In this document: positions 5,850 to 20,603 of the stretch, piece after piece
Layout: each line of letters starts with the position of its first letter
Position numbering within the stretch: position 1 is the stretch's first letter
Virus record (IMG/VR): IMGVR_UViG_3300027976_000262
Span: 1-20,603 of that record
From: a virus
Direction: 5' to 3' (one strand)
DNA: 20,603 bases
Notes under the pieces: generated by a model
The model's database searches: none
Told to the model about the DNA's origin: nothing
The model's input: the letters and a program-made list of their open reading frames with translations, nothing else
Position numbers and translations under genes: made by a program

Positions 5850-7058
5850 ATGAACAGAGAAGACCGGAGGAGCGCGCAGCGCTCCAAGCACACGGACGAC
5901 CCGCTAACTGCGGTTTGGTTCAGTAACGCACCTTGGGCCCCGACCGGGTACGGGACTCAGACCGCTCAGGTCGTCCCTCGCATGAAAGCGGACGGGCACA
6001 ACGTGGCCGTGATCGCGAACTACGGACTCGAGGCGATGCAAACCCAGTGGGAGGGGATCAACATCTACCCGCGTGGGTACGAGTCCTACAGTAACGACGT
6101 CGTTGCTGCGAACTTCGCCGATTGGAAACGGCAACACCCACCCGGCCGGTCTCATGTTTTCGTTCTCTTCGACGCGTGGACTTTGGTGGGTCCACAGTGG
6201 GACGAACTACCCACTTCCGTCTGGACGATGATCGACCACATGCCAGTACCACCGGCAGTGCTGGAGAGGCTCATCAAACCGAACATCACCCCGATCTCAG
6301 TGAGTAAGTTCGGGCAGCGCGAGATCGAACGTCTAGACATCGAATCTCCCTACATACCGATGGCTATCGACACGCAACTGTACACACCGACCGCTACCTA
6401 CTCCAACGGCGGCAACGTACTGACCGGTCGGCAACTCATGGGTTTCAGCGAGGACGAGTTCGTTGTCAGTCTTGTGAACGCTAACAAGGGAGTCCTACCA
6501 TCGCGCAAGGCTTGGGGCGAGAACCTGCTGGCTTTCAGTATCTTCGCAGCGAGACACCCAGATGCAAGGCTCTACCTCCACACCGAGCGCCATGGGAGCA
6601 CCGGTGGTATCCGGCTCGACCCGTTGATCCAAGCGGTCGGGCTGAAAGAAGAACAATACAAGTTTGTGAACCAATACGCACTGCACTCGAACATACCGAA
6701 CGAAGCGATGGCCGCGATCTACACGTCCACCGACGTGCTGCTGGCCAGCACGATGGGTGAGGGTTTCGGTCTGACGGTACTCGAGGCTCAGGCGTGCGGG
6801 ACACCAGTGATAGTGAATGACTTCTCCGCGCAACCGGAGTTGCTCGGAGACGGGTGGCTCACGGAAAACCAACCGTGGTGGGACCCGACCCAGTTCGCGT
6901 GGTTCAGCACACCGAGTGTGCCGAGCATCGTCGATGGTTTGGAGTTGGCTTACCAACGTGGACGCGGCCGCAGCGACAAGGCCCGGGAACACGCACTCTT
7001 GTACGACGCGGACAAGATCTGGACTGAGAACTGGCGTCCGTATCTGGCGGCGTTGTGA
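5850..7058 (+). CDS. GT-B glycosyltransferase (GT4-like)
   Basis: This predicted retaining glycosyltransferase moves a sugar from a nucleotide donor to an acceptor. It has 402 residues from ATG 5850 (AAAGGA at 5835-5840). The N-terminal Rossmann-like half has the PTGYGTQTAQ loop (residues 31-40). The C-terminal half has LASTMGEGFGLTVLEAQACGTPVI (about 298-321, not quoted further), including the EX7E pair E304/E312 of GT4-like enzymes. There is no signal peptide or membrane segment, so it acts in the cytoplasm. It sits between capsid and connector genes, separated from the capsid gene by a hairpin. That position suggests virion proteins, perhaps the capsid, as acceptor, though host wall polymer or DNA cannot be excluded. 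Donor and acceptor are unknown. Confidence 0.85.
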   Translation: MNREDRRSAQRSKHTDDPLTAVWFSNAPWAPTGYGTQTAQVVPRMKADGHNVAVIANYGLEAMQTQWEGINIYPRGYESYSNDVVAANFADWKRQHPPGRSHVFVLFDAWTLVGPQWDELPTSVWTMIDHMPVPPAVLERLIKPNITPISVSKFGQREIERLDIESPYIPMAIDTQLYTPTATYSNGGNVLTGRQLMGFSEDEFVVSLVNANKGVLPSRKAWGENLLAFSIFAARHPDARLYLHTERHGSTGGIRLDPLIQAVGLKEEQYKFVNQYALHSNIPNEAMAAIYTSTDVLLASTMGEGFGLTVLEAQACGTPVIVNDFSAQPELLGDGWLTENQPWWDPTQFAWFSTPSVPSIVDGLELAYQRGRGRSDKAREHALLYDADKIWTENWRPYLAAL

Positions 7059-18431: not shown

Positions 18432-18511
18432 CCTCCGGGGCCTGAGCGTGCCTGCCGGAGCCGCGAGGCTCCCGGAGGCGTTCTCCTTGCCCGTTCTCGG
18501 GTTGTTTTTTT
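18432..18511 (+). terminator. terminator of the late operon
   Basis: CCTCCGGG (18432-18439) pairs with CCCGGAGG (18471-18478). Inside lies an alternative stem GGAGCC/GGCTCC (18457-18462/18467-18472) capped by a GCGA tetraloop of GNRA type. A third short stem CCCG/CGGG (18490-18493/18498-18501) is followed directly by TTGTTTTTTT. This is the clearest U-tract in the window and probably ends late transcription 30-110 nt after the last late gene. Confidence 0.7.
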
Positions 18512-18518
18512 CTTGTGT

Positions 18519-18562
18519 GTGTTGGGGCTCCGATCGGCTGCGGCTGGTTGGGGCCCCAACAC
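18519..18562. other. large hairpin after the late terminator
   Basis: GTGTTGGGGC (18519-18528) pairs perfectly with GCCCCAACAC (18553-18562), with two more possible pairs inside and a loop of about 20 nt. It begins 8 nt after the T-tract and ends 6 nt before the tandem repeat. It could be a second terminator, or a cruciform-like DNA site between late genes and accessory cassettes. Confidence 0.5.
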
Positions 18563-18568
18563 TTGTGT

Positions 18569-18692
18569 CCGGGGCTGGTCTCATACTCGGTGATCCCTCG
18601 AAATCCGGGGATTAGGCGGGGATTCCGAGCCCGGGGCTGGTCTCATACTCGGTGATCCCTCGAAATCCGGGGATTAGGCGGGGATTCCGAGG
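18569..18692. repeat. 62-bp tandem repeat, two copies
   Basis: Copies at 18569-18630 and 18631-18692 differ only in their last base. Each can fold: CTCGG (18586-18590) with CCGAG (18625-18629), and ATCCC (18593-18597) with GGGAT (18619-18623). Each also holds GGGGATT twice, 11 bp apart (18607-18613 and 18618-18624), about one helical turn, plus inverted GATCCC and AATCC. This looks like a protein-binding array (operator, or origin or recombination site). It has no spacers and no open frame of note. Confidence 0.8.
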
Positions 18693-18694
18693 TC

Positions 18695-18798
18695 CGACGC
18701 GCCGGGAGGGGATTGGTGTTAGGGGTCCGGGTTCCCGTATGGTAGGCTGTCCCTAACAGGTCGCGAGGGGTCGTGGCCGCAAATCAAGGGAGAACCAA
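18695..18798 (+). repeat. promoter-leader repeat, copy 1
   Basis: This is the first of three near-identical repeats of about 105 bp, running from CGACGCGCCGGGAGG through the promoter and leader to the base before ATG 18799. It shares the blocks ATTGGTGTTAGGGGTCCGGG and CCTAACAGGTCGCGAGGGG with the copies at 19443 and 20404. The middle 19 bp vary most between copies. The leader end (CAAATCAAGGGAGAACC) has one base more than in the other two. Confidence 0.85.
18717..18758 (+). promoter_or_regulatory. promoter P1 with inverted-repeat operator
   Basis: The extended -10 is TG-G-TAGGCT (18740-18748), with a weak -35-like TTAGGG (18719-18724) 18 nt upstream. The predicted start is near 18755, giving a leader of about 44 nt with AAGGGAG (18786-18792). 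TGTTAGGG (18717-18724) and CCCTAACA (18751-18758) form an inverted repeat whose centres are 34 bp apart, about three turns. They cover the -35 and the start point, the layout of a repressor-controlled promoter. Confidence 0.6.
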
Positions 18799-19083
18799 AT
18801 GAACAAGCACACAGCAACCAACCCGACCACCGGCCGGGTCTACACGCGGAACAGCAAGACCCGCACCTACAGCCACGTCGTGGTTGCGGACTTCTACTAC
18901 ACTGACGGCCGAGTCGCGGCAGTGGTCCTCGGCGGCCAGTACGACGCACCTCAGTTCGGGACTTGGACCAGCCGGCTCGACCTCGCGGAGAAGGCGATGC
19001 GGAAGTTGACCTCCGATTTTGGGGTTCTCCCTTTGGACATCGCGAAGTTCGAAGTCCAAATCTTGGAAGCGGAGGTGGCGTGA
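18799..19083 (+). CDS. small unknown protein, first gene of cassette 1
   Basis: This 94-residue protein starts at ATG 18799 behind the conserved AAGGGAG leader. It opens with a polar stretch, then GRVYTRNSKTRTYSHVVV (residues about 12-29), a pattern I associate with small unknown actinophage proteins (YTRxSxRTYxHVVV). Strands (ADFYYTDGRVAAVVLGGQY) follow, then a helix (RLDLAEKAMRKLTSDFG) and a closing strand. It has no membrane segment or catalytic motif and is a small cytoplasmic alpha/beta protein. The stop overlaps the next start (TGATG). Function unknown; an early host-acting or regulatory role is only a guess from the promoter arrangement. Confidence 0.75.
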   Translation: MNKHTATNPTTGRVYTRNSKTRTYSHVVVADFYYTDGRVAAVVLGGQYDAPQFGTWTSRLDLAEKAMRKLTSDFGVLPLDIAKFEVQILEAEVA

Positions 19084-19382
19084 TGCGCTCGGACCGCTCG
19101 ATTCTGGAAGCGGTAGCGGCGGATCGGGAGTTGGTTCTGAAGGACGCGGCAGCGTCGCTTCAGAACTGGCGCATGGTGTGCGTTTCTTGGCACTCCCGGG
19201 GCGTTGTGGCAGTCTGCCGGAACAACGCCAACGAGGACGTGTCCGTCGAGTTCCACGAGAACGACGGCCACTACTACGTCCGGTTGTTGCACGGACGCCG
19301 GCTCGTCGCGTGGACAGAGTTCGGTGGGCTCGTGTCCCACGACGCGATCGTCGCTGCAGTCCTCGGCTACTTGGACGTCTAG
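19083..19382 (+). CDS. small unknown protein, second gene of cassette 1
   Basis: This 99-residue protein has its ATG overlapping the previous stop and GGAGG at 19071-19075 (spacing 7). The frame is open upstream, but there it only shadows the preceding gene. An N-terminal helix (MRSDRSILEAVAADRELVLKDAA) is followed by WRMVCVSWHSRGVVAVCR and further strands (DVSVEFHENDGHYYVRLLHG), and ends in a helix with SHDAIVAAVLGYLDV. The order of helix, beta sheet and C-terminal helix, and the length, resemble the second gene of the next cassette (19849-20133). I do not recognise a family. Terminator T1 follows 15 nt after the stop. Confidence 0.7.
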   Translation: MRSDRSILEAVAADRELVLKDAAASLQNWRMVCVSWHSRGVVAVCRNNANEDVSVEFHENDGHYYVRLLHGRRLVAWTEFGGLVSHDAIVAAVLGYLDV

Positions 19383-19397
19383 TACCAGTTCGGCACG

Positions 19398-19425
19398 GGA
19401 GGGTCGCCCAGACGGGCGGCCCTCC
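19398..19425 (+). terminator. terminator of cassette 1
   Basis: GGAGGGTCGCCC (19398-19409) pairs with GGGCGGCCCTCC (19414-19425), 12 bp with one G-U, with an AGAC loop. Only TT follows, so the U-tract is weak. It lies 15 nt after the stop and just before promoter P2. It is closely similar to the hairpin at 20357. Confidence 0.7.
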
Positions 19426-19442
19426 TTCCGTATGTCCGGGCT

Positions 19443-19546
19443 CGACACGCCAGCAGGGGGATTGGTGTTAGGGGTCCGGGTCCCGGGATGATAAACTGTT
19501 CCTAACAGGTCGCGAGGGGTCGTGGCCGCTAACAAGGGAGAATCAA
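19443..19546 (+). repeat. promoter-leader repeat, copy 2
   Basis: This copy of the 18695 repeat ends at the base before ATG 19547. Its 5' block is the most divergent (CGACACGCCAGCAGG), and its -10 is TAAACT instead of TAGGCT. Its leader is identical to copy 3 from the CCTAACA block to the ATG. Confidence 0.85.
19466..19507 (+). promoter_or_regulatory. promoter P2 with inverted-repeat operator
   Basis: The extended -10 is TG-A-TAAACT (19489-19497), with TTAGGG (19468-19473) 18 nt upstream. Left arm TGTTAGGG is at 19466-19473. The right arm is TCCTAACA (19500-19507), one mismatch from perfect. The A-rich -10 should make this the strongest of the three promoters, and the imperfect arm may weaken repression. 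Both are inferences. Confidence 0.6.
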
Positions 19547-19852
19547 ATGAACAGAGCACTCACCGGGCTCACCGGGTCCACCAGCGAGGCCAACAACCAA
19601 ACACTGCTCGACGCACTCAGGATCGGCCGGTACCTCCAGTGCCGCGCCGCCGAGATCGGCAACACGATCGACATGAAAGCACTGAACACCGTGATCAACG
19701 AGATCGTGGCCGAGTTGCTCGTACGATTCCCACAGGCTGCGGACATCCTCGAGGCTTGGGAGGACGACCTCGACGATCTGCGTCCGATGTCTCGGGTCAT
19801 CCAGTCGTTCGTGTCGGGTCTGCTCGGCGACCGTGTCAGTGGTGTCGCATGA
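19547..19852 (+). CDS. small helical unknown protein, first gene of cassette 2
   Basis: This 101-residue protein starts at ATG 19547 with the leader AAGGGAG. It is almost wholly helical by composition: NNQTLLDALRIGRYLQCRAA, then MKALNTVINEIVAELLVRFP, then ADILEAWEDDLDDLRPM, ending SFVSGLLGDR. The acidic EAWEDDLDDL patch (about residues 69-78) may be an interaction surface. It is not similar by eye to the first gene of cassette 1 although it occupies the same slot. The stop overlaps the next start (ATGA). Function unknown. Confidence 0.75.
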   Translation: MNRALTGLTGSTSEANNQTLLDALRIGRYLQCRAAEIGNTIDMKALNTVINEIVAELLVRFPQAADILEAWEDDLDDLRPMSRVIQSFVSGLLGDRVSGVA

Positions 19853-20133
19853 GCGCCGACCGGGGCCGGCCGGAGGTCCTCGACGTTGTCGAGGCCCTCG
19901 AGTTCGACCACAAACTGAAAGTTGCACGTCGGATCTCGGACACCGAGATATTCGCTGTCACGCGACCCGGGACGGACGTGTTGGTGCTCCTCACGGACAC
20001 CGGCCATTCCATAACCGTCGAGGCTTGGGACGGAGCCCAACTGTTCGAGACGTCATCAGTCCCCGGGCTCGGGTGTTACACTCCTGAGTTCGTTGCCAGT
20101 CTGGTAGTGCGCTACTTCGAAGACCTGTCATGA
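19849..20133 (+). CDS. small unknown protein, second gene of cassette 2
   Basis: This 94-residue protein has its ATG overlapping the previous stop, without a strong Shine-Dalgarno, so it is probably translationally coupled. The frame upstream is open but shadows the preceding gene. The helix RPEVLDVVEALEFDHKLKVARR is followed by strands (EIFAVTRPGTDVLVLLTDTGHS; TVEAWDGAQLFETSS) and a terminal helix (TPEFVASLVVRYFEDLS). Same size, element order and end pattern as the second gene of cassette 1 (19083-19382) suggest distant paralogy. No known family recognised. Confidence 0.7.
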   Translation: MSADRGRPEVLDVVEALEFDHKLKVARRISDTEIFAVTRPGTDVLVLLTDTGHSITVEAWDGAQLFETSSVPGLGCYTPEFVASLVVRYFEDLS

Positions 20134-20342
20134 ACAAACGCCAGCGCTCCGGGCTCCGGGCTCTATTCATCCAACGCAAAGCCATCGAAGAGTTTGGGAC
20201 CCCGGACTGGGTCACGTACCCAGAAGCGTCCCACTTGTGCGAGCACTTCCGGTCCAAGAAGGACAAATACGCCGGCTGGACCTCGTCGAACAGCGCCGTG
20301 CGCAGGCTGGACGTGTGCATGTACATAGCGCGCAACTCGTAA
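20130..20342 (+). CDS. small basic unknown protein, third gene of cassette 2
   Basis: This 70-residue protein overlaps the previous stop (ATGA). It has a basic N-terminus (MNKRQRSGLRALFIQRKA), a middle with TPDWVTYPEASHLCEHFRSKKDKYAGW, and a C-terminal helix with RRLDVCMYIARNS. The charge and helices would fit binding to nucleic acid or an acidic partner. Two cysteines (one each in LCEH and DVCM) are not arranged as a zinc site. I do not recognise it. Cassette 1 has no third gene. The terminator at 20357 follows. Confidence 0.65.
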   Translation: MNKRQRSGLRALFIQRKAIEEFGTPDWVTYPEASHLCEHFRSKKDKYAGWTSSNSAVRRLDVCMYIARNS

Positions 20343-20356
20343 CAACGCTCGCCACA

Positions 20357-20386
20357 GGAGGGGCTGCCCGTTTGGGCGGTCCCTCC
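20357..20386 (+). terminator. terminator of cassette 2
   Basis: GGAGGGGCTGCCC (20357-20369) pairs with GGGCGGTCCCTCC (20374-20386), 13 bp including two G-U, with a GTTT loop. No U-tract follows beyond single T residues. Sequence and placement match the cassette 1 hairpin, and the loops differ. Confidence 0.7.
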
Positions 20387-20403
20387 TCCTGCATACCCGG
20401 GTT

Positions 20404-20506
20404 CGACGCGCCGGGAGGGTATTGGTGTTAGGGGTCCGGGCTCTAATGTGGTAGGCTGACCCTAACAGGTCGCGAGGGGTCGTGGCCGCTAACAAGGGAG
20501 AATCAA
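20404..20506 (+). repeat. promoter-leader repeat, copy 3
   Basis: This copy of the 18695 repeat ends at the base before ATG 20507. Its 5' block CGACGCGCCGGGAGG is identical to copy 1, while its leader is identical to copy 2, so it is a mosaic of the two. Confidence 0.85.
20426..20467 (+). promoter_or_regulatory. promoter P3 with inverted-repeat operator
   Basis: The extended -10 is TG-G-TAGGCT (20449-20457), with TTAGGG (20428-20433) 18 nt upstream. Perfect arms TGTTAGGG (20426-20433) and CCCTAACA (20460-20467) are spaced exactly as in P1. It drives the gene starting at 20507. Confidence 0.6.
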
Positions 20507-20603
20507 ATGACAACATACGCAGCAAGCACACAAGACCGGGCGTTCCTCTTCGCTGACACGGTCGAGATCCTCGAGACCGAGGACCTCACAGTCCTCGTAA
20601 GCG
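20507..20603 (+). CDS. start of a further cassette gene (partial)
   Basis: This open frame starts at ATG 20507 with the conserved AAGGGAG leader and runs off the window after 32 codons. The visible part (MTTYAASTQDRAFLFADTVE, then acidic ILETEDLT and VLVS) is not similar by eye to the first proteins of the other cassettes. Too short for a call. Confidence 0.6.
   Translation, partial: MTTYAASTQDRAFLFADTVEILETEDLTVLVS

Follow-up and report, generated by a model that had tools for sequence, protein, structure and literature searches.

The window analyzed here, a 20,603-nucleotide stretch of DNA from an uncultured actinobacteriophage (IMG/VR record IMGVR_UViG_3300027976_000262), carries near its right end three plus-strand promoter-leader units of ~105–107 bp, which a repeat search and sequence alignment placed at 18695–18798 (unit 1), 19443–19546 (unit 2), and 20404–20506 (unit 3). 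An ATG follows directly after each (18799, 19547, and 20507), and units 2 and 3 are 87% (E = 2.9e-31) and 90% (E = 3.5e-38) identical to unit 1, respectively. Upstream of unit 1, the late/exonuclease operon ends at an intrinsic terminator with a stem and a T run (18489–18512, plus strand; terminator scan and sequence), followed by a 10-bp perfect inverted repeat, GTGTTGGGGC/GCCCCAACAC (18519–18562), which may be another terminator or one that works in both directions. The repeat search also showed a 61-bp sequence in two exact tandem copies (18569–18691) immediately upstream of unit 1; in this duplication, CTCGGTGATCCC and GGGATTCCGAG form an imperfect inverted repeat. GC-rich hairpins on the plus strand come after cassette 1 (19397–19426; −32 kcal/mol, z = −4.1) and cassette 2 (20356–20387; −32 kcal/mol, z = −5.3). 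An earlier sequence-only reading had called them terminator-like; the hairpins are real, but neither is followed by a T run.

That reading had also counted three repeats and proposed seeking them in the rest of the genome. When we compared an exact 22-mer of the leader with IMG/VR, a single contig was matched, IMGVR_UViG_3300027983_000068 (32,237 bp), with five copies. This contig and the window are the same phage: they differ by 18 SNPs over 18,083 aligned bp, with none after 18333. A position-weight scan of both strands of the whole 32-kb contig returned five high scores and no other score near them. All five units are co-directional and intergenic, are located after the structural genes, and end at an ATG. 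The array continues past the end of the window, whose last unit is unit 3; units 4 and 5 lie ~1.4 and ~3.7 kb farther on. The three repeats were correctly placed, each ending at its start codon, but the phage has at least five, two of them recovered by the proposed search. Exact-pattern scans of IMG/VR gave no carrier besides this contig, BLASTN of the unit and of the 2.2-kb region against INPHARED gave no match, and the unit was absent from all syntenic relatives compared, which share the neighborhood of a DnaQ-like exonuclease. A looser-pattern IMG/VR match in the AT-rich L064 looks like chance.

The five units share one order of parts: GTGTTAGG, a segment of varying sequence, TGNTANNCT, 3 nt, an unchanged CCTAACAGGTCGCGAGGGGTCGTGGCCGC, GGGAGA, and ATG. 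TGNTANNCT fits an extended −10 element in all five, with TG and TA..CT invariant and the surrounding bases variable. The sequence TTAGGS, 18 nt upstream, is a weak predicted −35 with little resemblance to TTGACA, and no promoter was called at the units by a strict scan for sigma-70 promoters. In unit 1, the predicted elements are the −35 TTAGGG (18719–18724), the extended −10 TGGTAGGCT (18740–18748), and a +1 near 18755; the extended −10 reads TGATAAACT in unit 2 (19489–19497) and TGGTAGGCT in unit 3 (20449–20457).

Around the predicted promoter, TGTTAGG and CCTAACA form an exact 7-bp inverted repeat with a 28-nt spacer and a fixed outer distance of 42 nt in five of five units (18717–18758, 19466–19507, and 20426–20467 in units 1–3). 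A 7-bp dyad alone is not rare, as similar repeats occur in ~10% of genomic 78-nt windows, and because the arms never vary, it shows no covariation. We consider the dyad credible because both arms fall in invariant blocks, between which we estimate the chance of a complementary 7-mer at ~0.3%. When columns were shuffled, 1 of 200,000 trials reached the invariant run of 29 nt; the leader could owe its invariance to recent gene conversion and not to selection. By computed fold, the predicted transcript opens with an 8-bp hairpin, GGUCGCGA-GGGG-UCGUGGCC, followed by GGGAGA and ATG. This leader hairpin (GGTCGCGA-GGGG-TCGTGGCC at 18759–18778 in unit 1, −14.5 kcal/mol, z = −2.8; 19508–19527 in unit 2; 20468–20487 in unit 3) starts 4 nt past the predicted +1 in the five units, at energies of −12.9 to −14.5 kcal/mol.

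All of the cassette genes in the window lie on the plus strand. Cassette 1 holds a 94-aa gene of family A (18799–19083) and a 99-aa gene of family B (19083–19382), both assigned by paralog search; the latter is predicted to fold as alpha-beta5-alpha (mean pLDDT 82.6). Cassette 2 has genes of 101 aa (19547–19852), 94 aa (19849–20133), and 70 aa (20130–20342), and no relative was found for the first in family and paralog searches or for the third in family searches. Cassette 3 begins with a family B gene that runs off the window (20507–20603) and is complete as L005:8921–9205 (minus strand). Family A has members in cassettes 1, 3, and 4 (A1–A4, E = 1.7e-11, alignment z = 18.8; A3–A4, E = 2.7e-6, z = 8.5; A1–A3, E = 0.003, z = 6.1) and family B in cassettes 1 and 3 (B1–B3, E = 6e-8, z = 18.5), so that the genes do not simply differ between cassettes, as had been thought: both genes of cassette 1 have paralogs elsewhere in the array. 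Placing 19849–20133 and L005:4898–5374 in family B was unsupported by a shuffle test (z of −0.4 to 3.1). Searches of Pfam and PHROGs assigned no function to the cassette proteins, fold searches with the family A and B models gave no match with E below 1e-3, tblastn of both families against INPHARED gave no convincing match, and neither the leader nor a family A relative was found in GTDB genomes. These results speak neither for nor against the host-takeover or anti-defence role suggested earlier. Separately, on the otherwise unrelated contig IMGVR_UViG_3300027987_000239, a gene (L066:6001–6228) shares the family A N-terminus; its DNA is 82% identical across 79 bp where the gene begins, with no identity upstream. 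The family A gene start thus occurs without the promoter unit.

Between units, neighboring genes of the mapped array overlap or nearly abut, with spacings of −23 to +19 nt, and the gaps at the units measure 102–164 nt. The unit 3 operon includes a WhiB-like gene (Pfam E = 6.7e-19), the unit 4 operon encodes a putative secreted lysozyme- or Rpf-like protein (read from the sequence; no family match), and unit 5 precedes an adenylosuccinate-lyase-like gene, purB (Lyase_1, 9e-30), with replication genes farther on. Other gaps of 126 and 193 nt in the early region beyond unit 5 may hold other promoters. Because of the WhiB-like gene and purB, the locus is not only accessory, and from the operon layout and the gene content behind units 3–5, the units look like early promoters of the phage rather than only the heads of accessory cassettes.

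We therefore favor, at a probability of about 0.72, a reiterated early promoter with a standard 5′ leader that opens each early operon, its activity being predicted. Host RNA polymerase with the housekeeping sigma factor would recognize the invariant extended −10 together with the weak −35, and transcription would start ~7 nt past the −10, inside CCTAACA (near 18755, 19504, and 20464). The 8-bp hairpin at the mRNA 5′ end would shield against 5′-end decay and keep the adjacent GGGAGA site open, and we propose that every operon would in this way receive an identical start, both strong and uniform. A single regulator probably binds the TGTTAGG...CCTAACA repeat, which reaches from −35 to +1, and would switch all five operons jointly. 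In two cases the preceding operon would be terminated by hairpins, and new copies would arise by duplication of a promoter with its next gene and by exchange between copies. The context is supportive: unit 1 comes after a terminator, units 2 and 3 come after hairpins, and in syntenic relatives the corresponding point holds a terminator and one TTGACA promoter.

The history of the array bears on the closest competitor of this reading. Among the five units, 13 of 21 informative site pairs are incompatible in a four-gamete test, which upholds the earlier description of copy 3 as a mosaic. DNA similarity also extends beyond the units, upstream across the hairpins for units 2 and 3 (80% over 163 bp) and into the gene for units 1 and 4 (82% over 197 bp). 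Given the cassette paralogs, duplication of promoter and gene accounts for part of the array, and the sequence patterns suggest that the copies first arose by duplication and later underwent exchange or gene conversion with one another.

Such exchange, and the similarity that continues past the units, would also be expected if the units were mainly a recombination platform, in which the control repeats allow whole cassettes to be swapped between phages and the locus is a modular accessory one. We regard this as unlikely. Searches of IMG/VR, GTDB genomes, and INPHARED yielded no other phage that carries the unit, the paralogs common to several cassettes are explained by duplication, units also head non-accessory operons, and shared promoters could give rise to exchange as a side effect. 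What stands of the modular-locus proposal is that near-identical units head short co-directional operons and that copies exchanged sequence; swapping between phages was not observed, as the sole other carrier found is the same phage, and a purely accessory role is contradicted by the WhiB-like gene and purB behind the units. Cassette content, which had been suggested for comparison between relatives, did not vary between the window and the other contig of this phage over their shared stretch.

More distant relatives, whose DnaQ-like exonucleases are 57–74% identical, do vary at the site, which counts weakly for cassette swapping. The site is occupied by a tyrosine integrase with a small HTH-like gene in L023 and L024 and by serine recombinases in L025 (names read from the sequence), while L014–L020 have a small gene there along with a single terminator and a single TTGACA promoter; these differences indicate that modules are exchanged at this point over long periods. 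The L025 promoter resembles the unit (GATTGGTGT, TGGTAGACT, and TTCCTA), with a spacing that is 6 nt different. A GGTGCA/TGCACC inverted repeat at the L014/L018 promoter is not put forward as homologous, as it is not kept in L015, L016, or L020. Upstream of the tyrosine integrase, L023:6751–6810 looks by eye like a tRNA-Lys 3′ end in reverse complement and is a probable attP core.

The integrase and HTH-like genes of the syntenic L023/L024, and a dyad that surrounds the promoter in every copy, would fit a temperate phage whose early region is kept repressed, with the inverted repeats as operators of its immunity repressor. This is improbable, more so than the recombination platform: no integrase, excisionase, or repressor was recognized among the early ORFs read on the incomplete contig, all mapped early genes are co-directional, and the dyad is short. 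It is more improbable still that the element acts as RNA, with dyad and leader forming two adjacent read-through hairpins as put-like antitermination or processing sites. In put-type RNAs, two stem-loops of the nascent early transcript act on RNA polymerase, and the predicted fold of the 85-nt unit 1 transcript does have two neighboring stems (−31.7 kcal/mol). However, the z score of this fold is only −1.7, the first stem is present only in read-through RNA, Rfam gave no match at gathering score, and the extended −10 within the first "loop" is left unexplained.

The early-promoter reading can be set against known repeats. In cluster K mycobacteriophages, ESAS/SAS repeats lie just 5′ of the start codons of many non-structural right-arm genes (PMC3203893; PMC11373665), and Adephagia has seven intergenic 46–47-bp ESAS that combine an inverted repeat with SigA-like −10 and −35 elements spaced 17–18 nt from each other (PMC11373665; PMC3203893). 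The window units likewise occur only in the non-structural region and directly 5′ of start codons. However, the 13-bp SAS, GGGATAGGAGCCC, is absent from the unit start codons at up to two mismatches; its sole two-mismatch match in the scan (19326–19338, minus strand) is inside a gene. As regards the SigA-like pair, the units have TGNTANNCT at an 18-nt spacing from a weak −35, with a negative strict scan. In place of imperfect ~17-bp inverted repeats with a 4–14-nt spacer, they have perfect 7-bp arms and a 28-nt spacer. As neither the SAS sequence nor the inverted-repeat dimensions agree, the units are not ESAS; in addition, unlike ESAS, they place an invariant leader hairpin between promoter and start, and their cassettes include paralogs. 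Halovirus HF2 also reuses short intergenic repeats along its genome, and all nine that were tested had promoter activity (PMC8707807), but these are archaeal promoters with AT-rich motifs and no homology to the units.

At least one Streptomyces phage isolate, Hiyaa (MK279841.1), also has a reiterated promoter-leader layout, built from different sequences. Hiyaa has an intergenic repeat series in which TGNTTTAMT occurs in 21 of the 45 upstream regions examined, nearly always with CTTGCG or TTGCG 18–19 nt upstream; a literature search found no published description of these repeats. Between 17213 and 42305 (L076), ~20 start-associated units with the order CTTGCG-N18-19-TGNTTTAMT-hairpin-GGAGC-ATG head small genes. 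Both phages combine a −35, an 18–19-nt spacer, an extended −10, a short gap, a 5′-proximal hairpin, and a purine-rich ribosome site before the ATG, in front of small cassettes, and both encode PurZ and PurB. Their sequences are unrelated (CTTGCG/TGNTTTAMT versus TTAGGS/TGNTANNCT), the ~20 Hiyaa units are more diverged, and the Hiyaa inverted repeat, CTTGCG/CGCAAG, flanks the −35 only. Most Hiyaa leaders begin with a GC-rich hairpin (mean z of −1.31 versus +0.23 for control stretches), whose stem varies between units (20 leaders gave 16 distinct stem entries). That stems change while pairing and position are kept supports, by analogy, a functional leader hairpin in the window units. Another phage has a 72-bp repeat (75%; L070:2423–2494 and 2847–2918) between its short genes, a possible reiterated leader.

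To our knowledge, the early promoters of most actinobacteriophages are unmapped. On our best reading, the known purpose of starting early operons would be served here by a reiterated, compact promoter-leader variant. The five natural copies separate constant from variable positions and so define testable promoter, leader, and operator elements; the shared layout with Hiyaa despite different sequence suggests that a reiterated promoter with a hairpin leader is a general device. The units could supply insulated expression parts for Actinobacteria, and they offer a possible counterpart for ESAS, whose role is still called unclear.

The same phage encodes PurZ (L011:2209–3402; PHROG 1211, "2-aminooxy adenylosuccinate synthetase," 2.1e-81), with GGQYGSEGKG and Ser at the place of PurA Asp13, and its own PurB-like lyase (L005:3476–4684) and dUTPase (L011:1048–1746), all on the minus strand of IMGVR_UViG_3300027983_000068; its genome likely contains 2-aminoadenine. 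The PurZ and PurB pair is also present in Hiyaa and in Gordonia phage Archimedes. If T:Z pairs hardened −10 melting, each early operon would need its own strong start, and Z-DNA actinobacteriophages might share the reiterated extended −10 and 5′ hairpin leader through selection via T:Z pairing. This phage and Hiyaa would be two examples, with unrelated sequences, but we think the idea very doubtful: Archimedes and Arthrobacter phage Glenn, which both encode PurZ, showed no comparable repeat series, which argues against its generality. Elsewhere in the window, between head genes, an ORF at 5850–7058 resembles, by eye, a group-1 glycosyltransferase.
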